Below are positions 6,161 through 24,683 of a DNA stretch of 41,368 nucleotides, in pieces; position 1 is the first letter of the stretch; each line of letters begins with the position of its first letter. A program made the translations under genes and the position numbers. The notes below the pieces were generated by a model. It worked only from the letters and a program-made list of their open reading frames with translations. It had not been told where the DNA came from and did not search any database. The DNA is from a virus. The stretch is taken from the IMG/VR virus record IMGVR_UViG_3300005468_000031, positions 1 to 41,368 of that record. One strand, 5' to 3'.

Positions 6161-6789
6161 AGCGGTGCTTCCTTGGGAAGCTCCCTAACCCGAAGAGTTG
6201 CGCGAGCGTAGCGATCGACGCTCGCGCCGCCGCGCGCATGCTCGATCCGGGTCAGATCCTCCTCGAGGCGCGAGAGCCGGAGGAAGCCGACGATCCAATC
6301 GGCCACGGTTACGGTCTGGCCGAGGGCTGCGTCCAGGACGACGCTCTCCGTTCCGTCGCCGTTATTCACGGCCGAGAGAGCCTTCCGGTAGAAGACGGTG
6401 CCCGCCTTCGAGCGAAAGAGGATGTGGCGGCGGGCCCCCGTGCCGGGCCACATGTTCGAGGCGTAGCCGAAGAACTTGACCACGAGGCTCGTGTTGGCGC
6501 CGGCGTGGTCCGTGTTCAGCGTGAAGTGGTGCTTAAAGGTGGGGAGCCAGAACGGGACCGCGCGGCCGCGGCGCGCATCCAGAAAGGCCCTCAGATCAGC
6601 GAGCTCCGCTAGCGTCGTGCAGATCCAGGCATAGGAGAGAACGCCCGAGCTCACGGCCTCGGGATCGTCGGCGACCCGCTTCCCGGTTCCGGGATCGATC
6701 AGATAAAAACGCCGTTCCGGCTGGTCTTCTTGGCCGCTTCCTCCATCGGTGGGGAGCTCGAGGACGTCGAAGCCGAGGTATTGCACCAT
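6157..6789 (-). CDS. Distal-tail-like tail tip protein
   Basis: A 210-residue protein. Residues about 60-80 (LRAFLDARRGRAVPFWLPTF) show the arm typical of tail-tip proteins that join the tube to the tip hub, followed by beta-rich sequence and a C-terminal RELPKE tail. It directly precedes the gpL-like gene with an ATGA overlap and follows the beta-helix gene with a TGATG overlap. It plays the part of lambda gpM or of GTA gp12-type proteins. The exact family name is uncertain. Confidence 0.65.
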   Translation of the reverse strand: MVQYLGFDVLELPTDGGSGQEDQPERRFYLIDPGTGKRVADDPEAVSSGVLSYAWICTTLAELADLRAFLDARRGRAVPFWLPTFKHHFTLNTDHAGANTSLVVKFFGYASNMWPGTGARRHILFRSKAGTVFYRKALSAVNNGDGTESVVLDAALGQTVTVADWIVGFLRLSRLEEDLTRIEHARGGASVDRYARATLRVRELPKEAPL

Positions 6790-8405
6790 CAGTTGAGGCT
6801 CCTCGATACCTCGTTCCAGTTAGCGCCATCCCACTTCGCACAGAGGCAGTCTTTGCCGCCCGTCGCGTTCCCGACGAAATTCCCGTTCAGGTTGAGATTC
6901 GAGCCGTCGGTGAACTGGAGCGCCGCGGAGGTCCAGAAGCACGTCGTCTTCCAGAGGAAATAGGGGAGCCCGGTAATCGAGGTCACGGTGGTCGTGCCCG
7001 TCACGTCGAAGTCGGAGCCGTCCGGATGCGGCGCAATCGTGGCGGCGCTCGTCAGGTCCGGCGCCTTCTTCGTCTGTTGGATGCCGATGACCTGGCCCGA
7101 ATTGCGGTAGCCGTTCGTGGTGGCCCCGGCCCCTTTTGCAATCGCCGGGCTATACCAAACGACGTGTCGGTAGGGGTTATTGACGTCGGCCCCGGTGGTG
7201 ATGACCTCGGTGGTGTATTGGTTTTCGATCAAGGTGTCGGAGTCGGCGTAGAGATTTCGGACGCTAAGCCCGCTCGGAGAGAAGGCGAAATTTCCGGGGA
7301 CCGAGTTCTTGATCTGAACGGCGGCGCGGAAGCGGCCGCTCGGATGGACGGCCGTGTAATCATCGATCGTCACGCCGGAGGCGCCATCGATCAGGACACC
7401 GACGCTCATGGAGTCCGAGAGCTCCGTATAGAGATCGCGAAGCGCCACGTTGACGCTCCCGCCGCCCGTGGCCTGGGTTCCGTCGATCTTGATCGCGGCC
7501 ATGTTCCGGCCCGGTCGATCACACTCGATATGCTCAAGGTCGACGTGGCGCATCCCAGCAAAGATAAGGATGTTGTTGTCGCCGGTGTCGTTGACGATCA
7601 GGTTCTCGCCCCGGAAACCCCCAAAGGCCTGCCCCGTCGTTCCTTTCAAGGCGATCCCCACGCCGGAGACGTTCGCGACCCGGCAATTACGGATCTCGCT
7701 CCCGACGAAGAGGCTCTTCAGGTAGATGCCGGCGTCGATCCTGGCCCCGCTCGATTTATTCCCTTCGATCGTGATCCCATCGAGCCCGGCGTACTGCTGT
7801 CCCCCGGTGGTGTCGTGGTTCGTGATCGCGTAGGGGACGTTCGTCGAGGCGTTTGCAGTAAACACCGAGCCGTTGTCGTGGGTCTTTTGACCGAAGGCGC
7901 GGAGGATGACCTTGTTCTTGAGCCGCACCGGTGTCGTAACGAGGAGGATTCCGGCATTGCTCGGAACCCAGACCGTCCCGCCGCCCGCGCTATTACATTC
8001 CTCGATAGCGGCCTGGACGCCGGCGACCGTCATGGCGAAGGTGACCCCGTCGACGATTCGGATCGCCCCCCCAGTCGTCGGCGTGGAGGCCGGGCCCAAG
8101 CGAGGCGTGGTCGTCGTCGCGTTGGGCCCGCGAACTCGCCAGGAGCCGTTGAAGAACTGGGTGACAACCACGTTGGAGGGGATCGTTCCGATGCCAACGG
8201 CATCAAGTCCAGGGCCGATCGAGACCGTCCCGCTCGGCGAGCACCAGGCGATCGAGGCGGCCACGCCCACCGAGTCGCCGTTAAAGTTCTTGTCGGTGAA
8301 CTGACCGGTCTTCCTCGCCCAGACCGAGCCGCTCCCGGAATAGCCGAATGCGGATCCGACCGTCATCAGGCATAGAACTACCGCCATTCCTAAACGTCGC
8401 ATCAT
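6789..8405 (-). CDS. Exported right-handed beta-helix (pectate-lyase-like) protein
   Basis: About 538 residues. The start region reads MMRRLGMAVVLCLMTVGSAF then GYSGSG: basic n-region, hydrophobic core and an AFG-type cleavage site, i.e. a Sec signal peptide. The body has the Asn/Gly/Val-rich stacked-strand texture of pectate lyase 3 and tailspike beta-helices (for example DGITIEGNKSSGARIDAGIY), with coils over residues about 120-400. Position inside the tail-tip operon suggests a tailspike, but tailspikes are normally cytoplasmic until lysis, so the signal peptide is odd. Either of two adjacent ATGs (8405 with the ATGA overlap, 8402 with better GGAGG spacing) may be used. It could be a secreted polysaccharide-modifying enzyme expressed with the tail. 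Confidence 0.72.
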   Translation of the reverse strand: MMRRLGMAVVLCLMTVGSAFGYSGSGSVWARKTGQFTDKNFNGDSVGVAASIAWCSPSGTVSIGPGLDAVGIGTIPSNVVVTQFFNGSWRVRGPNATTTTPRLGPASTPTTGGAIRIVDGVTFAMTVAGVQAAIEECNSAGGGTVWVPSNAGILLVTTPVRLKNKVILRAFGQKTHDNGSVFTANASTNVPYAITNHDTTGGQQYAGLDGITIEGNKSSGARIDAGIYLKSLFVGSEIRNCRVANVSGVGIALKGTTGQAFGGFRGENLIVNDTGDNNILIFAGMRHVDLEHIECDRPGRNMAAIKIDGTQATGGGSVNVALRDLYTELSDSMSVGVLIDGASGVTIDDYTAVHPSGRFRAAVQIKNSVPGNFAFSPSGLSVRNLYADSDTLIENQYTTEVITTGADVNNPYRHVVWYSPAIAKGAGATTNGYRNSGQVIGIQQTKKAPDLTSAATIAPHPDGSDFDVTGTTTVTSITGLPYFLWKTTCFWTSAALQFTDGSNLNLNGNFVGNATGGKDCLCAKWDGANWNEVSRSLN

Positions 8406-9049
8406 GGACCTCCAGGTACGACGGCTCCTTCGTCCACGACGACGAACTCGTCCGTCACAGTGGGCACGATGTTGGTCGTGCCATGGCATTCGAAGCTGAA
8501 ATGGTGGCGGCTCGTGACGAGCTCGGGGGTTTCCCAGCGAAGCGGAACCGTCGGCTCGAGGAAAGCGGTGCGCACCGGGATCAGGTAGCTCGAGGCGGCC
8601 GACCAGGTCGCGACGAGCGGGACCGCGAGCTCGATCGAGGACGGATAGATCGCGTTGAGCGACACGAGCTCGAAGGTCTTGGAGTCTTTCCAAAGGAGCG
8701 CGTAGGGCCCGAGGCCGAGCGGATCCGTGAAGGGGAGGCCGGCGGTCAGGACGGGGAGCGACGTCGCCGCCGCGGATGCGTCGGCCGTCAAGCGCGTCGC
8801 GTAGGGCCAGAGGGGAGCGGCCCAGATCTGGGAGTGCTTCCGGAAGAGAAGTGCGGTCATCCGCTGAAACTCGTAGCGGCTCTCGCTGAAGAAGCTCGTC
8901 TCGATCGCCCCGGTCGGATGGCGGCGGAGCTGCACCCGCTGCTCGTTCCCCTCGTAGGAGGGACCGATCACGTCGGTCAGGTAGCCGTACCACTCGACGA
9001 TCGGATCCAGGCCGTTGGGCTCGAACGGGAAGACGACGGGGGCGGCCAT
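8402..9049 (-). CDS. Tail tip protein, distal-tail-like
   Basis: A 215-residue protein directly downstream of the tape measure (TGATG overlap) and before the beta-helix gene (ATGA overlap). It contains FQRMTALLFRKHSQIWAAPL, similar in layout to the FWLP arm of the gene at 6157-6789, followed by beta-rich sequence. Its place after the tape measure is that of lambda M or of siphophage distal tail proteins. Assignment rests on position and general pattern. Confidence 0.55.
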   Translation of the reverse strand: MAAPVVFPFEPNGLDPIVEWYGYLTDVIGPSYEGNEQRVQLRRHPTGAIETSFFSESRYEFQRMTALLFRKHSQIWAAPLWPYATRLTADASAAATSLPVLTAGLPFTDPLGLGPYALLWKDSKTFELVSLNAIYPSSIELAVPLVATWSAASSYLIPVRTAFLEPTVPLRWETPELVTSRHHFSFECHGTTNIVPTVTDEFVVVDEGAVVPGGP

Positions 9050-13167: not shown

Positions 13168-13629
13168 CTAGGCCCAGGTCTCCAGGTCTCCGGTCTTGTG
13201 CTGCGACCGTGCGATGAATCGAACCGTGGCCAGGCAATAGGCGTGGTCCGACTGCTGGTATTCGTACTTCACCCCGTTGAAGAGGATCGTTCGGTAGAGC
13301 ATCCCCGCCTGGACGCCCTTCTCCTGTCCCGCGAGGCGGCTCACCACGTGCCGGATGAGAGGATCCGCGGCGACGTCCGGGGCCGTCGTCTCATCGCCCA
13401 TCACCCGGCACTCGAGCTTGAAGTGGACGTCGTCCTCGGTGACCGGGCCGTTCCCTTGGCTCGGATCCCGGATGTCGATTTCCTCGAGGTAGCCGGAGAT
13501 CGTCGGGAGCATCGCCGGGTCGATCGCGAACGTGAACGTGCGGGTCGCGTTCGGGACGCCCGCGGGGGGCGCCGGCGTGTTGAGGAGCGCGATCGCGTCA
13601 TCAACGATCCGGGTCGGAATCGTGCTCAC
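13168..13629 (-). CDS. Tail terminator/tail completion protein (U-like)
   Basis: A 153-residue alpha/beta protein starting with a GTG that shares GTGA with the stop of the FII-like gene. The opening STIPTRIVDDAIALLNT and the position between the head-tail joining gene and the tail tube match lambda gpU-type terminators, which cap the tube and join it to the head. No sequence motif is decisive. Confidence 0.65.
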   Translation of the reverse strand: MSTIPTRIVDDAIALLNTPAPPAGVPNATRTFTFAIDPAMLPTISGYLEEIDIRDPSQGNGPVTEDDVHFKLECRVMGDETTAPDVAADPLIRHVVSRLAGQEKGVQAGMLYRTILFNGVKYEYQQSDHAYCLATVRFIARSQHKTGDLETWA

Positions 13630-13922
13630 GGCGCGATCTCACAGAGCGCTTCGGAGAGCGCCCCGTCCCCCGAGCGCTTGACGTCGGTGGCCACGTAGGT
13701 CGCGGTCCCGATCACGACGTCGGCCCCCGGGCGAAGCGCCGGGAACTGGCCCGTCTTCGCGGTCAGGAGGATCCGGGTCGCCTGGACGTGCATGCCGGCT
13801 CCACCGAGGAGATCCTCGCCCACCCGCGTGACGATCACCGAGGCCGTGACCCCGCCGATCGTCGCCTGGGTCGGGGATTCCGCAAGCATCACGTCGATAT
13901 CCTCTTCGCCGAAGAAGGTCAT
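13626..13922 (-). CDS. Head-tail joining protein, FII-like (stand-alone copy)
   Basis: A 98-residue protein with the beta-sandwich pattern of lambda head-tail attachment protein FII: LAESPTQATIGGVTASVIV, a central ALRPGADVVIG, Y-V, and GDGALSEALCEI at the end. In lambda this domain sits between connector and tail and is needed for tail attachment. It is followed by the tail terminator (GTGA overlap) and preceded by the repeat protein (ATGA overlap), which itself ends in a paralogous domain. The FII call comes from pattern comparison made from memory. Confidence 0.75.
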   Translation of the reverse strand: MTFFGEEDIDVMLAESPTQATIGGVTASVIVTRVGEDLLGGAGMHVQATRILLTAKTGQFPALRPGADVVIGTATYVATDVKRSGDGALSEALCEIAP

Positions 13923-15055
13923 AGCTCGTTCGCGCAAAAGACTTGGGTCAAAGCACCGTCCCCCACCTGGAGCCACTCGCGGACGCGGTAGGTGATCGAG
14001 TCGGAAAGGAGCGGCGCCCCGATCGAGAGCGGTAGGCTCCCCGTGTGGATCCAGAAGACGGTCAGGCGGGCGTCGATCTCGATCGCCTCGCCGGCAAGAA
14101 GCCCCAGATCGGTCGAGTCGAGGATCCCCTTCACGGTCACCCCGCCGACCGTGACGTCCTGTCCCATCTCGGAGAGCAGGAACTCGATCTCCGCCTCCTC
14201 GAAGTACTGGGGCGGAGGCGGAGGGACGAAGACCGGGACTCCGGCCTCCTGGAAGAAGAAGAACCGAGCGAGATGCGCGCGCGTGAGCACCCGGCGCGCC
14301 GGCTGAACGATCGCCGTGAGCGGCTGGAAGACGGTCGGAGCCGCGGCGGGCGCGTCCTGGAAGAAGAACGATCGACCCAGGTAGGCGCGGGGAAGAGCTC
14401 GGCGCCCGGGCTGCACGATCGCGTCCTGGATCCAAATGAGATCCGGGGCCTCCTTGAAGAAGAAGGCTCGGAGGAGATGGGCCCGCCGGCCAGGAGCCCC
14501 CCGCGTGGGCTGGGAGATCGCCTGATCGAAGTAGATCGGCACCTGGGGCGCGGCGGGCGCGTCCTGATAGAAGAACGCGGTCGCGAGCTGGGCCCTCCCC
14601 TGGGGTCGCCGGACGGGCTGGGAGACCGCCTGGTCGAAGTAATCGGGCGCGGTGGGGGCGGCGAGTGGCGCCTCCTGGAAGAAGAAGGCTCGCGCGAGAT
14701 GCGCGCGCCGCCCCTGGATCCGCGTCGGCTGAGAGAGGTCCCCCAGTACGGGAGGTGCCGGCGGCGGCACGTCCTGGAAGAAGAGCGCCCGGGTAAGGTG
14801 GGGACGCCGCCCCGGTGCTCTCGTTGGTTGCGAAATGCTCTGGGGGACGAGCTCCGGGGCCGAGGGGGCCGCGACGGGCGCGTCCTGGTAGAAGAAGAAG
14901 GGGATCGCCGCGATGAGCGCGGCCCGCCCGAGGCGGCGGAGCGCGTGATTTCGGTCTGGCTGATTGGGAGCGGGGGCCCACGTGCCGAAGCTGTCCGCCT
15001 CCTCGATCGAGGAGCGGACGGGGGTCGCGAGCCGCTGATATTGCCAGAGCTTCAC
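13919..15055 (-). CDS. Tandem-repeat protein fused to an FII-like joining domain
   Basis: A 378-residue protein with GTG start. Residues about 37-280 are seven copies of a 32-39 residue unit whose core is R-x-H-L-x-R-A-FFFQ(D/E)AP, with Phe blocks at 53, 92, 124, 161, 198, 230 and 265, linked by Pro/Ala-rich stretches ending SQPTR. Residues 284-378 are a second FII-like domain (GQDVTVGGVTVKG, HTGSLPLSIG, VGDGALTQVFCA), clearly related to the genes at 13626 and 16683. I infer that the FII-like part docks at the head-tail joint and the repeats form an extension. I do not recognise the repeat family. Confidence 0.75.
   Translation of the reverse strand: MKLWQYQRLATPVRSSIEEADSFGTWAPAPNQPDRNHALRRLGRAALIAAIPFFFYQDAPVAAPSAPELVPQSISQPTRAPGRRPHLTRALFFQDVPPPAPPVLGDLSQPTRIQGRRAHLARAFFFQEAPLAAPTAPDYFDQAVSQPVRRPQGRAQLATAFFYQDAPAAPQVPIYFDQAISQPTRGAPGRRAHLLRAFFFKEAPDLIWIQDAIVQPGRRALPRAYLGRSFFFQDAPAAAPTVFQPLTAIVQPARRVLTRAHLARFFFFQEAGVPVFVPPPPPQYFEEAEIEFLLSEMGQDVTVGGVTVKGILDSTDLGLLAGEAIEIDARLTVFWIHTGSLPLSIGAPLLSDSITYRVREWLQVGDGALTQVFCANEL
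14216..14947 (-). repeat. Seven-copy FFFQ(D/E)AP coding repeat
   Basis: Within the gene at 13919-15055. The unit of 32-39 codons is degenerate in both protein and DNA but keeps the Arg-rich helix-like start, the FFF(Y/Q)-Q-(D/E)-A-P core and the Q-P-(T/V/A/G)-R end. Spacing between Phe blocks is 39, 33, 37, 37, 32 and 35 residues. One related, weaker unit (LGTERQLFEMQDAVP) is seen in the neighbouring gene at 16683. Confidence 0.85.
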
Positions 15056-15056
15056 G

Positions 15057-15764
15057 TCAGTATCCCACGACCGATCGGGGCTCCGCTCTTGGCCGCTCGG
15101 TGGACGGGACCCACTGCACGTTTACTAGAGCCGAGGCGTCGAGCTCCACGACGATAGAACAGAATGCACTCGCGGAGGTGCCCCCCCAGGTAACGGTCGT
15201 TCCCGTAAATCCGCTGTTTCGAAAGACCGTCTCGGCGCCGGTCGTCGGCGTCGCATACCCGACGTCGCCCCCTTCGGTCCAGCTCGCCGGCGGCGTCATC
15301 GTCGCCGGGCTCGTCGCGTTCGAGACGAGGCCGAGAGTCGGATTCGTCGTGATACAGGAGGCGCCGAATACCGGCGCCGGCGTCCCGGAGGCGGCCTGGT
15401 TGTCCTGCTGCCCCGTCTGCTTCACGGCCGCACTCCCGAGCCGCGACATGCCCGAGATCCGCCAGACCTGGAGGATGCAGCCCGTGGCCGCGTTCCCGGC
15501 CCAGGTCACGGTCTGGGAGGTCGCGGTCGTGAGCGAGTTCGCGACGAAGAGATAGGAGGTGTCGACACTCGCCGCCTTCGCGGCGGTGGCGATCTTCGTG
15601 AAGGTCGAGACGACCGATCCGGTCAGAGATCCTCCCGTGTCGGTCCCAGACAGGGTCGCGAAGACGACCAGGAGATCGTTCGCCGCCGGTGTGAAGGCCC
15701 CGCTCACGTAGCTCGAGGCATTGGCGGTTGAGGGCGTACTGATCGCGAACGTGCATGCGGCCAC
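15057..15764 (-). CDS. Beta-rich virion-associated protein
   Basis: A 235-residue Ser/Thr/Gly/Ala-rich protein starting with GTG (GGAGAG site 7 bases upstream). The opening TPSTANASSYVSGAFTPAAN and the strands that follow suggest one or more beta-sandwich domains, as in head decoration or fibre proteins. It stops two bases before the repeat-protein start. No enzymatic motif seen. A structural or displayed role is inferred from composition and position. Confidence 0.62.
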   Translation of the reverse strand: MAACTFAISTPSTANASSYVSGAFTPAANDLLVVFATLSGTDTGGSLTGSVVSTFTKIATAAKAASVDTSYLFVANSLTTATSQTVTWAGNAATGCILQVWRISGMSRLGSAAVKQTGQQDNQAASGTPAPVFGASCITTNPTLGLVSNATSPATMTPPASWTEGGDVGYATPTTGAETVFRNSGFTGTTVTWGGTSASAFCSIVVELDASALVNVQWVPSTERPRAEPRSVVGY

Positions 15765-16070
15765 CTAGCATCTCTCCGGGCCTTCGATCTTCTGGAACTC
15801 CTCCGCGTACTTCCGCGCCGGCTGCCCCTTCTTAGCGCCCTCCATGAGCTCGATCCTGGCCTCGTAGGGGACGCAGGGGTCGCAGGCCTCGGCCCCGCAG
15901 GTCACGCCGTTACAGCGCATGCAGAAGCCGCGCTTTCGACCCGAGCCCGGGACTCGGACCCAGTGAAGGCCGCAGTGGACGCAGCGGAGCGTCTCGAGCT
16001 CCTCCGGGGCTTCGCCCGGCCGGAAGATCTGGATGAACCCGGCCGGGCCTTTGTTCTTATGTCCGAACAC
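15765..16070 (-). CDS. Cysteine-rich zinc-ribbon phage protein, 101 aa
   Basis: It begins at a GTG (MFGHKNKGPAGFIQIFRPGE) after a purine-rich site. Cysteines are grouped as CVHC, CMRC, then C-x4-C-x2-C, suggesting two zinc sites. The pattern CVHCGLHWVRVPGSGRKRGF is reminiscent of small conserved proteins in phage structural regions; function unknown. The stop abuts the start of the beta-rich gene that follows. Confidence 0.7.
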   Translation of the reverse strand: MFGHKNKGPAGFIQIFRPGEAPEELETLRCVHCGLHWVRVPGSGRKRGFCMRCNGVTCGAEACDPCVPYEARIELMEGAKKGQPARKYAEEFQKIEGPERC

Positions 16071-16076
16071 GCGCCT

Positions 16077-16523
16077 CTATTCCTCCCAGTGGAACGTGGC
16101 GTTGATGTTGGGCGTGCCGCCCGAGGCGATCGACTCAAGCCCGACCCAGTTGTCGGACGTGATTGGGACGACGATCTCCCCGCCCGGGGCCGCGACCCAT
16201 CGGAAGGTGGCTCGCTGATTCAGAGCGATATTCAAGAGCGCGCTGTTCGCGGTCTTCGTATTGGCCGTGGCTCCCACTTTGGCCGAGAGGAGTGCTGCCG
16301 GGTTTCCGGGGTCGAGTGCGCGCGGCGTGGGCGAGGAGGCGCCCGTCCCTGAGACCGTGCCTCGAATGATGTTGAATTCCGATGCGACGTCCGCCGGCGT
16401 CGCGTCGGATCCGATCAGAATGTCGTAGAGCCAGCCCCGGGTCGTCGCCGCCGCGATCAGCTCGAGGATCGTTAGGTTCGTCCCGGCCGCCGTCTGTCCC
16501 TCGACTGCGTACTTTCGAGCCAT
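16077..16523 (-). CDS. Hypothetical beta-rich virion protein, 148 aa
   Basis: It has a strong AGGAGG site 9 bases before the ATG. The sequence is Ala/Thr/Gly-rich with a strand pattern near the C-terminus (NQRATFRWVAAPGGEIVVPI), like phage decoration or fibre-associated proteins. There is no recognisable family. It is the first gene after a 159-base gap that holds a possible terminator. Confidence 0.6.
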   Translation of the reverse strand: MARKYAVEGQTAAGTNLTILELIAAATTRGWLYDILIGSDATPADVASEFNIIRGTVSGTGASSPTPRALDPGNPAALLSAKVGATANTKTANSALLNIALNQRATFRWVAAPGGEIVVPITSDNWVGLESIASGGTPNINATFHWEE

Positions 16524-16589
16524 GGTCTCGCTACCTCCTCATGTGTGGAGCGTCGCCGCGCCCGCCGTTACCGCAATGGAAAAGGGTTC

Positions 16590-16673
16590 AAAAAGAAAGG
16601 GCCGTTCCGTCGTGCGGCGACTCCGACCGGACGCCGCTCCAATCTTCGCCACCGCCGCGAGCGGTCCGGCCCC
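16590..16673 (-). terminator. Possible terminator/structured gap after the FII-like fibre gene
   Basis: On the minus strand GGGCCG (16668-16673) can pair with CGGCCC (16599-16604), enclosing an inner GCGGCG/CGCCGC hairpin, and is followed directly by TTTCTTTTT (16590-16598). It lies in the 159-base gap 16524-16682, where no gene is seen. The long loop makes this a weak candidate. Confidence 0.3.
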
Positions 16674-16682
16674 GATGCCCTG

Positions 16683-18275
16683 CTACGGAAGAGCGCACAG
16701 GATCTGCGTCAAGGCGCCGTCTCCGATCGTGCCCGCCTCCCGGACGACGTAGATCTGCCCGTCCGTTGAGAGCTCGATCCCGATCGCGAGAAGGGGCAGG
16801 GACCCGGTCTCGATGTAGACGAAGACGTCGGTTCCGAGGATCCCAGTCTCTTCTCCGATCAAGACCTTCCGGGTGACGCGATCGACGTACCCCTTCGTGA
16901 CGTCCGGGCCGATCGAGACGTCCTGGCCCGAGTCCGCAATCAGGATCGCGATGTCCTGGGCCTGGAAGTAGGGGAGGTCGACCGTTTGCACAGGCGGGAG
17001 CGAGAGCACCGGAGGCGGCCCGAGCGGAACGGCGTCCTGCATCTCGAAGAGCTGCCGCTCCGTCCCCAGGTAGACGATCCCGGCCGGAGTGAAGGTCTTC
17101 GAATATTGCTCGAACGCCGGATCGTAATCCGCGAAGCTCTGATCGTTCACGATGAGCGTGAAGGGGCCGCGGTCCACCCACGTCAGTGAACCTGCCGGAA
17201 GGACTCGCATCTTGACGGCGCCGGCGGTGACGCCCGATCCGTACTCGAGCGCGCCCTCGGAGGTCGTGATCGTATCGACGACTGCGACCAGATCCTTGTC
17301 GAGCAGCTGGACCCGCTTCCCCGCGAACGGGGCGCCGGTGGCGTGGTGACCGACCCGCACATTCCAGGTCCGCCAATCCTCGACGTCGCTGTTCGGAGCC
17401 GCATTGAACTGCACTTTGACCTGGGACCAGATCTTGTCGACGAGCTGCCACGGGACGGTCGGCGTGATCGACGTGTTCTGCATGTCGGCGCCGTTCGTGG
17501 CGGACCCGATCGTAACGAGATCCCGACATCGGACCGTGCCTCCCGTCCCAATCGGCCGCCCCACCGTGTTCGGCGCCGAGATCGTCATGCGGGCTGCGTC
17601 GTCCACGTTGAACTGAGTGCAGCCGTTTCCCGACACCGCGGTCGACACCATGTCCATGTTGAATGTCTTCTGAAGCTCTCCCGCCCCGGTGCCCAGGCCG
17701 AGCACGCCCGTGGCTTCGGCCAGGACGTTGATGAGCCGGCTCGGGAGTCCCACGGCTCCCGGTTGCCAAATCAGATTCCCCTTGGCTCTCTGTTTGGAGC
17801 CAAACATCTTGCTGGTCCCGCGAAGCGTCGGGGCCAGTCCGTAATAGCAGTCCACTCCGTTTCGCCCGGTGGGCTTTCCGATCGCGCCGACCACCTCGAT
17901 CCCGTATTCGGTCGAGCGGTTGGAGAGGCCGACGTTCGATACGATGTGCGTCTTCCCGTCGATCCATATGACAACCGCGTCCTGATCCTTGAAGGAGGTT
18001 GGTAGCGTGCTCACTCCGTCCCCGTTCTGGATCGTGACGAAGACGAAGTAGACCTCGATCGAGAGGGTCGCGTAGGCCGCGATCGATTTGAGCCGGAGCA
18101 CGGCGGGCGTCACGCCGTCGGCCGCGAAGAATCCCTTCGCCGCGCATGCCAGAGCCAGGTCCAGGTAGCTGTAGAGGCCGTCCCCGCCCGCATCGGCGTT
18201 CGTGTGGTCGTCGTAGGTGACGACCGAGCCGTTTCCTCCAGCTCCCGCCTGGAGAACTCCCTGGCCGGTCGGCAT
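16683..18275 (-). CDS. Large beta-rich protein ending in an FII-like joining domain
   Basis: A 530-residue protein. Residues 1 to about 300 are Gly/Thr/Val-rich and unassigned. Residues about 300-395 look like an Ig/carboxypeptidase-regulatory-type sandwich (AGKRVQLLDKDLVAVVDTIT, RGPFTLIVNDQSF). One repeat-like unit follows (LGTERQLFEMQDAVP). Residues 434-530 are a third FII-like domain (GQDVSIG, IETGSLPLLAIG, IGDGALTQILCALP), closest to that of 13919-15055. I infer that it mounts a beta-rich appendage at the neck. It could instead be a tail-sheath-like decoration. Confidence 0.7.
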   Translation of the reverse strand: MPTGQGVLQAGAGGNGSVVTYDDHTNADAGGDGLYSYLDLALACAAKGFFAADGVTPAVLRLKSIAAYATLSIEVYFVFVTIQNGDGVSTLPTSFKDQDAVVIWIDGKTHIVSNVGLSNRSTEYGIEVVGAIGKPTGRNGVDCYYGLAPTLRGTSKMFGSKQRAKGNLIWQPGAVGLPSRLINVLAEATGVLGLGTGAGELQKTFNMDMVSTAVSGNGCTQFNVDDAARMTISAPNTVGRPIGTGGTVRCRDLVTIGSATNGADMQNTSITPTVPWQLVDKIWSQVKVQFNAAPNSDVEDWRTWNVRVGHHATGAPFAGKRVQLLDKDLVAVVDTITTSEGALEYGSGVTAGAVKMRVLPAGSLTWVDRGPFTLIVNDQSFADYDPAFEQYSKTFTPAGIVYLGTERQLFEMQDAVPLGPPPVLSLPPVQTVDLPYFQAQDIAILIADSGQDVSIGPDVTKGYVDRVTRKVLIGEETGILGTDVFVYIETGSLPLLAIGIELSTDGQIYVVREAGTIGDGALTQILCALP

Positions 18276-18518: not shown

Positions 18519-19031
18519 TCACCGGAAGAGATAGAGGTGAAACCCCACGTTCGTGAACTCGCTACCGGTGCTCCGGATGCGTGACTCGCCCTGGGATTCC
18601 ACGTGCGCGATGCCGAGTGCCGCCGAGACGCTGAAGTTCTTCGCGACGAACGCCTCGCCCTCGAGCTCGGCCGAGATGGTCGTCTTCCCGATGTCGTTAC
18701 GGTTTTCGTAGAGGACGCCGGGACGGAAGAGCGCGCGGGCGCCCTTCCAGCTTTTCATCGTGATCGGGATCCCGCCATCCAAGGCCCAGTCGTCCTGGTT
18801 GTCCCTCGACGTGAAGCCGGCGCCCAGGTCGAGGCTCAAGTACTCGCTCACTCCAAGCCGCATCCCGATCGGCGCCGCCAGGCTGTGAAATCCGACCGCG
18901 GTCCCGTTCTCGCGTTCCGCCGGCACGGCCGCGGCTCGATGCTTGACACCGGCGCGGCACGTCGCCGCCGAGGCGGGAAACGCGAGGCAGACGAGGAGAC
19001 CCGTCGCGATCAACATTCCTTTCAGATTCAT
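18519..19031 (-). CDS. Outer-membrane beta-barrel-like protein with signal peptide
   Basis: A 170-residue protein with strong GGAGGAAGAG site before the ATG. Residues 1-22 (MNLKGMLIATGLLVCLAFPA then SA) form a typical Sec signal peptide. The mature part has alternating hydrophobic strands (YLSLDLGAGFTSR; ISAELEGEAFVAKNFSVSAA) and ends FTNVGFHLYLFR, like a small outer-membrane beta-barrel. Some phages carry outer-membrane proteins (lambda Lom, NmpC-type porins) that alter the lysogen surface or block superinfection. Placement between head and neck genes, not in a separate cassette, is odd. Its function is inferred. Confidence 0.72.
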   Translation of the reverse strand: MNLKGMLIATGLLVCLAFPASAATCRAGVKHRAAAVPAERENGTAVGFHSLAAPIGMRLGVSEYLSLDLGAGFTSRDNQDDWALDGGIPITMKSWKGARALFRPGVLYENRNDIGKTTISAELEGEAFVAKNFSVSAALGIAHVESQGESRIRSTGSEFTNVGFHLYLFR

Positions 19032-19062: not shown

Positions 19063-19509
19063 TCACTTCTCCGGGATGATGGTTTGAAACGGCTTCAAGG
19101 CGATCGGCGGGCTCTCCTTCTTCTCCTCCCGCACCTCGGCGGGCTTCTTCCCCTTCGCCCAGTCGATGGTGTGATCTCCAGCGCGCTGGGTCCCGTAGCT
19201 CAGAAGCCATGGGAGGAGCGCCTCCCGGAAGAACGCGACGAGGGGAGATCCGCTCGAGAAGATCCCGGTCATCACCATGTGGCCCGATCCCATCGTGCCG
19301 AGCGTGGTTTCGACCGATGCCTGCGGGACGATCGCGTGAAGCACGGTCAGGACGATCGAGGAGACGAGCCCCCAGAAGGGGGCCGCCTCGTTCACGAACT
19401 TCGGCCACTTCCGGGCGAGGAAGGTGCCGACCGTGAGGAGGACGAACTTAACGACGGTGTTGTCGAGGAACGCAAACAGCCCGGCGGCGAAGTGCTGGAG
19501 CCATTCCAT
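19063..19509 (-). CDS. Membrane protein, possibly holin-like, 148 aa
   Basis: AGGAGG site five bases before the ATG. Hydrophobic segments at residues about 5-35 (HFAAGLFAFLDNTVVKFVLL) and 42-62 (APFWGLVSSIVLTVLHAIVP), possibly a third near 88-103, then a charged tail rich in Lys/Glu. The topology is compatible with a holin or with a virion membrane protein. It lies beside another exported protein, far from the endolysin, so a lysis role is doubtful. Confidence 0.6.
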   Translation of the reverse strand: MEWLQHFAAGLFAFLDNTVVKFVLLTVGTFLARKWPKFVNEAAPFWGLVSSIVLTVLHAIVPQASVETTLGTMGSGHMVMTGIFSSGSPLVAFFREALLPWLLSYGTQRAGDHTIDWAKGKKPAEVREEKKESPPIALKPFQTIIPEK

Positions 19510-20489: not shown

Positions 20490-22538
20490 TTACGGGATCG
20501 CGTTCGTCCCGATGCAGAAGGAGACCGGGTGCCGGACGGCGATATCGGCGAGCTGGAAGGTCGTGATCTCGATCCGCGCCGCCTTCTTCTGGGAGTAGGG
20601 ATCGACGATCGCCTCCATCGCGTTCCAGAGGCCGATCATCAGCTCGTTCCAGTTCCCATAGAGGAGCCCGTGCTCGGCGCCTCCCGTCGTCGCTCCGTTG
20701 TTCCAGACCTTCGTGACCTGGTTCGTCGCGATGGCCCGGTAGCCGCGAACCGTCCCCTCATCGAGCCGGCCCATCCAGAGCATCTCGGACCCGGCCGAAG
20801 CCGCTACCAAGGTGCGGGAGAGGGTTGCGGCGAGGAGCGGGGTGGTGAGGAAGCCGAGCGCGCCGTAGTCCGCGTTCGCGTCGGCCACGAGCCCGATCAT
20901 CGAGACCAGGTCCGTGAGATCCGGAACGGCGTCGGCGCCGGCGCCGGCGCCGCAGTCCCGGACCAAGACGCCCGACTGGTTCGCCACGCCTCGCGGCTGA
21001 TTCGAGGCGCCCGTTCCCTGGATCGCCGCCGAGTCGATCGCCCGCGCGTGGATCTGGGCGAGATCGTCCCGAACGATCCCCTCGATGTCGTAGCTCGTCT
21101 GCTCGAGGAGCTGGCGGGTGTAGCCCGAGGAGGACATGAGCGTCTTCGGGGCGAGCGTGACCGTATCGAAGGCGGCCATGCTGTCCGAGACCGAGGCCTC
21201 CTCCGCGATCCACGAGGCCGTCCCCGCGGCCGTCTGGCGGGGGAAGGCGAGGGGACCCACGAGGCCCGTCAAGACGCGGGCTCCGAGGCGCGCGACGGCG
21301 AGCCTCGTTCGGAGCATCTCGATGAACTCCATCGGCTGCGTGAACTTGAACTCCGCCCCCTCGGTCGAGGTCGTGGAGTCGAGCGGGAAGGCGCGCTTCT
21401 GGATCAGCTCCTCGGGCTCAAAGAGCCGCATGGGGAGGTAGACCCCGCCCCGGCTCTTCGCACCCGCAGGCAGGTTCTTTCGGATCTCCTCGTGGACTTC
21501 GGCCTCGACCCCTTCGAGCTTCCCCGTTCCCTCGCGGGCCTCGAGGCACTGAAGGAGCGCCCGGCGGTAGGAGTAGCGCGAGCGGTCCTTGAGGCTCATC
21601 CCCCGGACCGGATTCATCTCGGCGGGGGACTGGGGCGTCCCGCGCGTCGCAATCTTCTCCAGGACCAGGGCCCGGAACGTATCGACCGAGGTCCCCTCGC
21701 AGAGGGCGGCCTCGGCTTCGGCCTGCATCTGGTGCACGCGGCCCAGCGTGATGATCGCGCTCGCGCGATCGCGCTCGGCCTTGCTTTGGTCGACCGTCAC
21801 GGCCGGCGGCGCGGCCACTCCGCCAGTAGCAGCGGGCGTCGTGATTGGATCCATCTTTCGCTCGTCCTCCGTGACGGGTCTCCCGTCGTCATAGCCCGCG
21901 AGGCCTCGAAACCTCGCTCGTGACCGGCCGACGGTGATGTCGGCCGGTATGTCCACAAACGACCACTCGAAAATCCGCCACTTCGTGGCGGTGTATTCGT
22001 CCCGCTCGCCCTTCTCGAGATCGCCCTTCTTCGTCTTCTCCCAGGCGAGAATTTCAAAACCGATCGAGGTGAAGCCGCGGACGCCGGCGTCGACCTCCGC
22101 TTTGACACCTTGCGGGGATCCCCAGCTCTGGGGGGCGTCGAGCGGGGACCACTTCATCCGGGCCCAGGTCTTCCGCTCCCCCTTCTTCCCGTCGATCCAC
22201 CACTTGCTCGTCCGGCCGAGGAGCTGGCCGACCTTGTGGTTCAGGAGAACGGAGGCGCCGGCGTCCAGGTAGTCGGAGACCAGGGCCCCCTTCTCGTGGC
22301 TCAAGACCTCGAGAAAGGTCTCGCCCGTCCACCAATCGAAGGCCTCGACGCCGGCGTCCGAGCAGATCGAGAACTCGTAGAGCTCTTCCTCCTCCCCGGT
22401 GTCGGTGCCGTCCGCGGCCTTCCGCTTCTCGGTGACCTTCCGGAGCTCGAAGGGGAAGAGCCGGTAGTGCTTGATGCCCTTATCCCGAAGGAGCCTCGGA
22501 GCGTCCTCCGCGCGGATTTCGTCTTCGATCTCGAGCAT
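20490..22538 (-). CDS. Prohead protease/major capsid fusion (HK97-fold)
   Basis: A 682-residue protein starting at the ATG at 22538 (AAGGAGG site 6 bases upstream). Residues 1 to about 220 are a U35-type prohead protease: His101 in VLLNHKVG, Ser158 in RGFTSIGFEI, and WSFVDIPAD near 192-200. Residues about 230-340 are a linker or delta-like scaffold. Residues about 380-682 are HK97-type capsid (KRAFPLDSTTSTEGAEF; ASWIAEEASVSDSMAAFDTV; IQGTGASNQPRGVANQSG). Cleavage after assembly would release the mature capsid protein. An internal ATG at 21854 has a GGAGG site 11 bases upstream and could give extra unfused capsid protein. Confidence 0.93.
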   Translation of the reverse strand: MLEIEDEIRAEDAPRLLRDKGIKHYRLFPFELRKVTEKRKAADGTDTGEEEELYEFSICSDAGVEAFDWWTGETFLEVLSHEKGALVSDYLDAGASVLLNHKVGQLLGRTSKWWIDGKKGERKTWARMKWSPLDAPQSWGSPQGVKAEVDAGVRGFTSIGFEILAWEKTKKGDLEKGERDEYTATKWRIFEWSFVDIPADITVGRSRARFRGLAGYDDGRPVTEDERKMDPITTPAATGGVAAPPAVTVDQSKAERDRASAIITLGRVHQMQAEAEAALCEGTSVDTFRALVLEKIATRGTPQSPAEMNPVRGMSLKDRSRYSYRRALLQCLEAREGTGKLEGVEAEVHEEIRKNLPAGAKSRGGVYLPMRLFEPEELIQKRAFPLDSTTSTEGAEFKFTQPMEFIEMLRTRLAVARLGARVLTGLVGPLAFPRQTAAGTASWIAEEASVSDSMAAFDTVTLAPKTLMSSSGYTRQLLEQTSYDIEGIVRDDLAQIHARAIDSAAIQGTGASNQPRGVANQSGVLVRDCGAGAGADAVPDLTDLVSMIGLVADANADYGALGFLTTPLLAATLSRTLVAASAGSEMLWMGRLDEGTVRGYRAIATNQVTKVWNNGATTGGAEHGLLYGNWNELMIGLWNAMEAIVDPYSQKKAARIEITTFQLADIAVRHPVSFCIGTNAIP

Positions 22539-22548
22539 CCGTGCCTCC

Positions 22549-24114
22549 TTAGTGCCCGTTCCCGTTTGCGACGGTGTATTCGCCCGGGAGCCGCCGCGCG
22601 AGGCGGCCGCGGCCGTTCTGGATTCCTTCTTCGTCCTTCTGGTCTTGGGCGTTTTGCTTCGCGACGGCATCGGCGACGCTCGCGCCGGCGATCGAGAGCT
22701 CGTACTGGGCGGCCAGGTCCTGCTCGGCTTTGAGCTGGGCGAAGACCTTCTTCACGTCGAGCCCCTGCTCCTCCAAGATCCGGGTCCGGGAGTCGAGGCC
22801 GTTTTCGATCGCGAGCGCGGCGGCCTGGATGTCCTTCAGGGGATCGACCCAAGTCCACCCGCGGCAGATCCACTGGCATTCGGTGAACGGGGTCGGATCG
22901 TAGGTGCCGAGCGAGAGCTTCCCGGTGAGGAGGGAGATCCGGAGCCACTCGCGATAGATCGGGTTCAGGAAGTGCTGGACCCAGTACTCCTGGAGCCGGA
23001 GGTAGAAGTCGCGCTCGTCGAGCTTCCCGCCGCGCATCGAGCTGTAATTGACCGACTCGAGATCCCCGGTCAGGGACGGGTAGGAAAGCCCGATTCCAAC
23101 CGCGATCTTTCGGCCGATCTGCCTCTGGAAGGCGGAGAATCCTGCGTTCGGATGGTCCGTATCGAAGGGCTCGACCGTCCAGCCCGGGGGGAGCTTCCCG
23201 AAGATCCCGGGCTCAACCTCCATCGTGAAACCGCCCTGTTTCGTCTCCTCGCCGATCTCGCCCGCGTTTACGGCGTCGGTCGTCCGGAAGAAGCCCATCT
23301 TCGCCGCACCAATGCACGCGGCCATGAGCTCCGCCTCCGTGTAGGAGGCATCCATCTTCAAGGAGACGAGAACGGGAAGGAGCCAGGTCACGGCGCGCGT
23401 CTGGTTCAGGCGCCGCATCCGGAAATTGTGGAGGACCTGGTCGGCCGGGATCCGCTGGCGCTCCGGCTTCTGCCCGCCGTAGACCACCGACGTGTCGTCG
23501 AATACGTGGTAGGCGAGCGGCCGTCGCCAGCGGTCCAGCTCGATCCCCATGACCACCCGAGAATCGGCCGACGTGCCCGGCACGTTCATGCTCTCGTCGA
23601 TCTGGTCCGGATCGATCGGCTCAAGCCCATAGGACCAGTCGTTCTTGAAGCCGACCCAGCGGCGCGTGAAGAGCTCCCCGTCGTTCACGTGGTTTTGAAA
23701 CGCCACGTGCATGTACTCGACCAGGTTCATCTTCCCGTCGGTCGTGACGCGGGACTCGGCGAAGCGCTGCCAGGTGTCCTTGATGAGGGCGTTTGTCTTC
23801 TCGTCGAGCTCGCCGTTCGGGAGCTTCACCTGGGGCGAGATCGTCGGGCCCCAGGGGCCGATCACGTTGTTCGAGAGGAGGCTCAGGGCCTGCTCGACGT
23901 AGGGGGCGGTATCCCTAAGATCGCGGGCGCGGGCGCGGAGGCGGCGCGCGGAGCGGCGCACCTCCTCGTCCGCGTTCACGGACCGCATGATCCAGTCGAG
24001 GAAGAAGCGGTTTCCCATGGGGTTCGTGACGAGCGCCGCCTGCTCGGGGAAGATCTCCCGCTTGAAGGAGGCGATCGCGCGGCGGAGGCGCGTTCCGAGC
24101 GGGGCCTTCTTCAC
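22549..24114 (-). CDS. Portal protein, lambda family
   Basis: A 521-residue protein of the lambda B-type portal family, recognised by RDTAPYVEQALSLLSNNVIG, HVNDGELFTRRW, GLSYPSLTGDLESVNYSS and MRGGKLDERDFY. The portal dodecamer forms the DNA channel at one capsid vertex and docks the terminase. It is followed by the capsid fusion after 10 bases and overlaps the upstream connector-like gene by ATGA. Length is normal for the family. Confidence 0.95.
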   Translation of the reverse strand: MKKAPLGTRLRRAIASFKREIFPEQAALVTNPMGNRFFLDWIMRSVNADEEVRRSARRLRARARDLRDTAPYVEQALSLLSNNVIGPWGPTISPQVKLPNGELDEKTNALIKDTWQRFAESRVTTDGKMNLVEYMHVAFQNHVNDGELFTRRWVGFKNDWSYGLEPIDPDQIDESMNVPGTSADSRVVMGIELDRWRRPLAYHVFDDTSVVYGGQKPERQRIPADQVLHNFRMRRLNQTRAVTWLLPVLVSLKMDASYTEAELMAACIGAAKMGFFRTTDAVNAGEIGEETKQGGFTMEVEPGIFGKLPPGWTVEPFDTDHPNAGFSAFQRQIGRKIAVGIGLSYPSLTGDLESVNYSSMRGGKLDERDFYLRLQEYWVQHFLNPIYREWLRISLLTGKLSLGTYDPTPFTECQWICRGWTWVDPLKDIQAAALAIENGLDSRTRILEEQGLDVKKVFAQLKAEQDLAAQYELSIAGASVADAVAKQNAQDQKDEEGIQNGRGRLARRLPGEYTVANGNGH

Positions 24115-24683
24115 GGCCTCATCCCGCCGGAGTAGTAGACCCGCACCGGCACCTCGAGCTGACCCGGGTGGAGGCGGGCGCGGATCCGGCTCTTCAGGCT
24201 GTCCCGGATCCGGAGGAGCTCCAAGAGGTCGTGCTTCACGACGCGCCGGCCGGCGATCTCGTATTCGAGGATGTCGGCCGAGAGGCGACCCGAGGTGACC
24301 CCGGCGCCGCTCTTATAGGCGATGACCTTCTCGACCATCGCCAAGGCCTTCTCTTCCCAGCTCTGGATCGCTCCCGCCGCCGCGGCGCCGATGTCGGGCA
24401 GGATCTCAAGCCGGCCTTCGGCGGCGGTTAACACCTGGGTCCCGTCGGTGACCCGCTCCCGCCATTCGTAGTCGCCGGCGACGAGGCCCGCCGTCTCGAG
24501 CGCGGTCAGGGTGACCTTGAAGTCCTTCCCGACCGCGACGGCGTCCTTGTCGACCGCGCCAGCGCCCTTCAGGTGGAGCTTTAAGGTCCAGCCTCCGTTG
24601 GCGGGGAAGTCGGTGTACGACCGGGTGTATTCGACCGAGGTTCCAGCTTCGATTTGATCGGGGATTTGGGTGAGGGTCTGCAC
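24111..24683 (-). CDS. Connector-associated protein upstream of portal (Ig-like N-term, gpW-like position)
   Basis: A 190-residue protein with GTG start. Residues about 1-95 are beta-rich (GGWTLKLHLKGAGAVDKDAV, AGDYEWRERV). Residues about 105-180 are helical (EKALAMVEKVIAYKSG; IAGRRVVKHDLLELLRIRDS). The layout is that of conserved proteins found just upstream of lambda-type portals, where lambda carries gpW. Probably a head-tail connector or portal accessory factor. No sharp ribosome-binding site is seen. Confidence 0.62.
   Translation of the reverse strand: MQTLTQIPDQIEAGTSVEYTRSYTDFPANGGWTLKLHLKGAGAVDKDAVAVGKDFKVTLTALETAGLVAGDYEWRERVTDGTQVLTAAEGRLEILPDIGAAAAGAIQSWEEKALAMVEKVIAYKSGAGVTSGRLSADILEYEIAGRRVVKHDLLELLRIRDSLKSRIRARLHPGQLEVPVRVYYSGGMRP

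Follow-up and report, generated by a model that had tools for sequence, protein, structure and literature searches.

Three copies of a gpFII-type stopper domain in one uncultured long-tailed phage, two of them fused to large modules: candidate anchors for neck appendages

We analyzed IMG/VR virus record IMGVR_UViG_3300005468_000031 over its whole length of 41,368 nucleotides ("the window"), a 41.4-kb viral record of an uncultured, long-tailed phage. Its head and neck genes lie on the minus strand in the order adaptor, portal, protease-capsid fusion, accessory block, stopper P0001, terminator, major tail protein, and tape measure. Three minus-strand genes in this region consist of, or end in, one shared domain of ~95 residues. 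The three open reading frames had been proposed in an earlier reading of the DNA from its letters and translations (the sequence-only reading), and we found them at the coordinates given there; that reading named no strand, and all three are on the minus strand. A pattern scan of IMG/VR led us to a divergent viral contig of the same design, IMGVR_UViG_3300010391_000121 (L010), which we use for comparison throughout. The features are as follows, with AF2 denoting AlphaFold2 models.

24111 to 24683, minus strand: adaptor (head-tail joining) protein, the proposed docking partner; PHROG head-tail joining, 4e-29; equivalents of adaptor residues R141 and R145 of roseophage R4C present
20490 to 22670, minus strand: protease-capsid fusion
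16683 to 18275, minus strand: P0003, 530 residues, large N-terminal body and C-terminal stopper domain
17004 to 18233, minus strand: P0003 body (residues 15-424), from homology to the L010 fusion
16686 to 16976, minus strand: P0003 stopper domain (about residues 434-530), from the confident part of the AF2 model, Foldseek, and identity to L010
13919 to 15055, minus strand: P0002, 378 residues, repeat module and C-terminal stopper domain
14243 to 14896, minus strand: P0002 repeats, seven FF(F/Y)(Q/K)(D/E)(A/V), spaced 32 to 38 residues apart
13922 to 14209, minus strand: P0002 stopper domain (about residues 283-378), from AF2 and Foldseek
13626 to 13922, minus strand: P0001, stand-alone gpFII-type head completion protein (stopper), 98 residues, from Pfam, PHROG, and its place adjoining the terminator as in relatives
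13168 to 13629, minus strand: tail terminator; PHROG tail terminator, 0.02 (weak); 38% identity to the L010 protein at the same place

The stopper genes sit between capsid and terminator. P0001 adjoins the terminator, P0002 adjoins P0001 with a four-base ATGA overlap, and P0003 lies three genes further up, both larger genes being located inside the accessory block.

The common domain proposed by the sequence-only reading was confirmed in three ways. A tblastn search of P0002 against its own record returned the other two copies only, at 6.8e-17 (46% identity) and 4.4e-9 (32%). Pairwise Smith-Waterman scores stood 21.2, 16.6, and 25.7 standard deviations over shuffled sequences, each beating all 1,000 shuffles. 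A DNA pattern for Y-x-[VA]-x6-GDGAL-x4-C occurred at exactly three places in the record, the three copies, with 0.00 expected. The guanine-plus-cytosine content at third codon positions was 0.85 to 0.89 in all three genes, as in the capsid and portal genes, and thus all three look coding. The landmarks originally listed for the domain fared unevenly. GDGA was retained, but TGSLP fails in P0001, which has TGQFP. The Cys near the end is kept in the three copies of the window, as the pattern match indicates, but it is no family landmark, as the fused copy of L010 does not have it. What is invariant in the family is GDGA together with an acidic residue of the N-terminal helix.

P0001 matched Pfam Phage_attach (the gpFII family, PF05354) at 7.4e-7 and 30.1 bits, above the curated cut-off of 26 bits, and PHROG head closure Hc1 at 1.3e-4. 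By the Pfam match P0001 is an FII-type stopper, and the domains of P0002 and P0003 are stopper domains by their homology to P0001; their identity to lone stoppers is 31 to 46%. Since P0002 matched PHROG head closure Hc1 weakly and P0003 matched nothing directly, we used structure prediction. The AF2 model of the P0002 stopper domain had a mean predicted local distance difference test score (pLDDT) of 80.7. Its best Foldseek match among solved structures was lambda gpFII (8k37_M; E value of 7.4e-6, template modeling [TM] score of 0.72), followed by a second lambda gpFII structure (8xow_f), the roseophage R4C stopper (8gtf_M; TM score of 0.62), and then other stopper and neck proteins. The P0003 model was confident in its C-terminal part only (pLDDT blocks mostly 82 to 97), and there the top three Foldseek matches were the same lambda gpFII (8k37_M and 8xow_f) and R4C (8gtf_M) structures. 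The N-terminal helix, the beta-sandwich, and the long hairpin, which in lambda gpFII inserts into the terminator ring (PMC10721106), were predicted in both fused domains. The FII-like character claimed for these domains is therefore borne out by sequence and by predicted fold, and the possibility raised with that claim, that the C-terminal domains fold unlike FII, is not what we found. At 378 and 530 residues, P0002 and P0003 break the small single-domain pattern of gpFII-type stoppers; the top 50 structural matches in BFVD were 91 to 195 residues long, none longer.

The module of P0002 contains the seven repeats described earlier, together with six QPxR motifs. The description of the P0003 body as beta-rich was not confirmed: the AF2 model was unreliable there (pLDDT of about 30), so we make no fold claim for it. 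No Pfam or PHROG match to the P0003 body was found, and Pfam detected no BppU-like or fibritin-like anchoring domain in P0002 or P0003. The candidate anchor in both proteins is the stopper domain.

L010 has the gene order adaptor, portal, capsid, small genes, fusion gene, lone stopper, and terminator, and its adaptor, portal, and capsid proteins are 39%, 42%, and 39% identical to those of the window. Its fusion gene is an open frame of 822 codons encoding a body, a PKD domain (Pfam, 8e-16), and a C-terminal stopper domain. The body aligned with that of P0003 at 28% identity over 431 columns (E value of 5e-28), and the stopper domains of the two fusions are 50% identical. The fusion and lone stopper genes of L010 overlap by one base (TGATG). 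In the tree, a clade of the two L010 copies was rejected (approximately unbiased test, p-AU 0.0027), and the fused L010 copy grouped with that of P0003, although support was not strong; the placement of the P0002 domain was not settled. The rejected clade and the position of the fused copy indicate that the fusion either predates the split of the window phage and L010 or moved between them, and that it has been kept. The PKD domain may be a display-type module; none was detected in P0002 or P0003, although the body model of P0003 is unreliable. Because of this domain in the L010 homologue, the gene slot described below, and general knowledge of phage display domains, we regard the P0003 module as possibly adhesin-like. 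Separately, another short-repeat module of a stopper fusion lies in the N-terminal part of the L010 protein (L010:6764-7460), where the short repeats are of the LLLE type (RYLLLENGVDRLLLEDGSGLLLLEE).

In ten related loci, a lone stopper was all that we detected: four viral contigs (L011, L082, L095, and L101), four regions in genomes of a Gemmatimonadota phylum sample (L147-L150), and cyanophages S-LBS1 and S-CBS1. Together with the L010 fusion and the lengths of the BFVD matches, these loci show that the fused form recurs and that it is rare. A stopper profile run over about 1,650 cellular genomes of five phyla gave 15 matches in 14 genomes and no fusion; 13 of the 15 lay in open frames of 99 to 156 residues. 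One other match (L138) is a lone stopper whose start lies inside a longer open frame, and another (L146) was poor and probably spurious. The strongest cellular matches came from the phylum to which a Gemmatimonadota genome belongs, which hints only weakly at the host. Relatives in IMG/VR were reached by hand-made DNA motifs; searches of IMG/VR with back-translated peptides gave no close relatives for P0002, P0003, the capsid protein, the major tail protein, or the three-domain alignment. Among annotated phages, tblastn with P0002, P0003, the P0002 stopper domain, and the repeat module returned zero matches, and the L010 fusion matched mainly across its PKD region. No convincing relative was present among 59 motif matches in genome contigs. 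Cyanophages with related capsid proteins hold fiber and Mtd-type genes in the same interval, so this interval is a slot for fiber-like genes.

We then considered whether the fused domains have kept the residues that face the adaptor. In R4C, D7 and D13 of the stopper N-terminal helix form salt bridges with adaptor R145 and K131, and D90 of the stopper core pairs with adaptor R141 (PMC10276861). An acid occupies the D7 position in P0001, P0002, P0003, and both L010 copies, and the Asp of the invariant GDGA falls on or close to D90. On the adaptor side, the window protein and those of its relatives all have R141, and they have K or R at position 145. At these positions the docking surface looks intact, and all three domains probably can still dock on the adaptor, the contact residues being the most direct evidence. 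All of the fusions (P0002, P0003, and L010) are N-terminal to the stopper domain. Since the N-terminal side of lambda gpFII faces outward around the adaptor (PMC10721106), a module placed ahead of the helix could point outward round the adaptor and off the DNA channel. In R4C, one stopper makes only small contacts with the next, and the proteins are thought to remain monomeric until docked, which would permit mixing of stoppers.

On the strength of the kept adaptor contacts, the N-terminal fusions, and the slot for fiber-like genes, we propose that P0002 and P0003 bring appendages to the neck by docking their stopper domains on the adaptor, most simply in a mixed hexamer. We put the probability of this reading at roughly 0.6. 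In outline, the gpFII-type gene would have been duplicated in this phage lineage, not recently, with two copies coming to bear N-terminal modules. P0002 and P0003 would each bind the adaptor dodecamer by the stopper domain, in the simplest form as minority subunits of a stopper hexamer shared with P0001. P0003 would then display a large module that may be adhesin-like, and P0002 a strand rich in repeats. The overlap of fused and lone stopper genes, by four bases in the window and one in L010, and the same fusion in a divergent phage were also counted in favor. We infer from these data that the fused copies are present in the virion, at the neck, in a mixed ring, with a whisker or ancillary host-binding role; the same applies to their stoichiometry and the function of their modules. 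The sequence-only reading had likewise suggested neck appendages mounted on the joining domain. Its FII domains stand, the adaptor surface looks intact, and the fusion recurs in a divergent phage, while the neck position, the ring, and the whiskers are the conjectural part of that suggestion. Its other option, successive stacked FII rings, found no support. The most specific form of our proposal, a heteromeric ring in which three paralogues share one hexamer and some bear different N-terminal appendages, making the genome plug also a fiber mount, we hold tentatively and at somewhat below even odds.

Several points weigh against the proposal. P0002 and P0003 are known here from their genes and predicted structures alone. 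On their own sequences both fall under the Pfam cut-off, P0003 has no direct Pfam or PHROG match, and the AF2 models were built from alignments of nine rows. GDGA and R4C D90 align only if a two-residue loop difference is allowed, and adaptor K131 is not kept in the window or its relatives. The P0002-type fusion, one of the two fused types, has no relative outside the window. Finally, neither the P0003 body nor the P0002 repeats could be assigned a fold or function with Pfam, PHROG, or AF2.

The rival that survives best is that P0001 alone forms the hexameric stopper, and that the fused copies use the same helix on other adaptor sites or in a second outer decorating ring off the terminator. 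There is room for such an arrangement, as R4C and lambda combine a 12-subunit adaptor ring with a stopper of six subunits, phage 812 has distinct decoration proteins across its adaptor-stopper junction, and N-terminal domains of the neck passage structure (NPS) protein are modeled as a ring around the TP901-1 adaptor. A Glu in the terminator-binding hairpin, present in 7 of 11 stand-alone copies and 0 of 3 fused copies, would fit as well, but these are too few to count and were not used. We consider this arrangement unlikely, given that a purely adaptor-binding copy would have no need of the long hairpin predicted in both fused domains.

It is less probable again that the FII-like domains were recruited elsewhere, for example to the tail tip or the capsid surface, and took their modules there. 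FII-like folds do resemble other tail barrel proteins, and the weaker Foldseek matches of both fused domains include tail hub proteins. However, stoppers make up all of the best structural matches, the two domains are 31 to 46% identical to lone stoppers, the adaptor-contact acids are kept, and the genes lie among head and neck genes rather than tail tip genes. Because all three domains look like complete stoppers, each virion could instead contain one kind of stopper, giving particles of three kinds that differ in their neck appendages. That seems very improbable: it requires homomeric rings sorted by kind, for which there is no known mechanism, and the overlapping frames link the fused genes to the lone stopper, which favors joint production. 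We give almost no credence to nonfunctional recombination by-products, i.e., stopper copies that came in along with passenger genes in a variable block. The capsid-stopper interval does carry variable extra genes in this lineage, but phages whose capsid proteins are only 39% identical have both kept the P0003-type fusion, the clade of the two L010 copies is rejected, and the frames are open with normal codon use.

We compared the proposed arrangement of stopper-borne appendages with known systems. Lambda gpFII and the R4C stopper (8k37 and 8gtf) are alike in fold, in the acid of the N-terminal helix at the adaptor contact, in the long hairpin, and in a gene adjoining the terminator. Each is a single small protein that forms a homomeric hexamer and bears no module, whereas the window phage has three copies, and in two cases the copy is the C-terminal domain of a large protein. 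The NPS proteins of TP901-1 and the 936 lactococcal siphophages are long, outward-projecting neck proteins expressed with head genes, similar to the role proposed here. Their anchor is a BppU-like N-terminal domain in a ring around the adaptor with the distal part C-terminal, in contrast to the C-terminal stopper domain that is our anchor candidate. How NPS proteins are joined to the neck at the molecular level was stated as unknown (PMC10747895). Anabaena phage A-1(L) likewise has neck-borne fibers (gp82-gp81-gp80), but these attach through the pilus-like N-terminal domain of gp82 to the gp5 pentadecamer and not to the stopper. The T4 wac whiskers and XM1 collar spikes are neck appendages too, but they belong to a separate collar disc with coiled coils and have no stopper domain. 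In phage 812, the stopper decoration protein gp164 is located at the adaptor-stopper junction and probably holds whiskers; it is a separate protein, not a stopper copy. The earlier statement that no described system is built this way held in our search of open-access papers, in which we found no case of an appendage anchored by the stopper itself. The parts, a stopper and a neck appendage, are known, and they would be joined here in a way that we have not found described.

Little is known about the way in which siphophages attach their neck appendages. If the proposal is true, their anchor could be read from sequence as a duplicated stopper, and an essential ring protein would have been reused for display, so that stopper rings could no longer be assumed to be homomeric. 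A large gene that ends in a stopper domain and lies upstream of a stopper would then be a simple metagenomic marker of neck appendages.

Other genes of the window deserve brief mention. Between the two fused stopper genes, the proteins encoded at 15057 to 15764 and 16077 to 16523 (minus strand) look by eye like beta-rich virion decoration or fiber-tip domains and have no family matches; they are possible partners of the appendages. Between these same genes, 15765 to 16070 (minus strand) encodes a 101-residue Cys-rich protein with CxxC pairs and possible zinc binding, which has no family match in Pfam or PHROG. Among the structural genes, 18519 to 19031 (minus strand) encodes a 170-residue protein with a secreted-type start (MNLKGMLIATGLLVCLAFPASA) that by eye resembles a small outer-membrane barrel, with no PHROG or Pfam match. 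The head-neck block also includes a 148-residue protein with hydrophobic stretches (19063 to 19509, minus strand), possibly holin-like and without a family match. Downstream of the tape measure, the gene at 6789 to 8438 (minus strand), which has no PHROG match, has the look of a beta-helix tail spike, with an ambiguous start site and a signal-peptide-like opening (MRRLGMAVVLCLMTVGSAFG).

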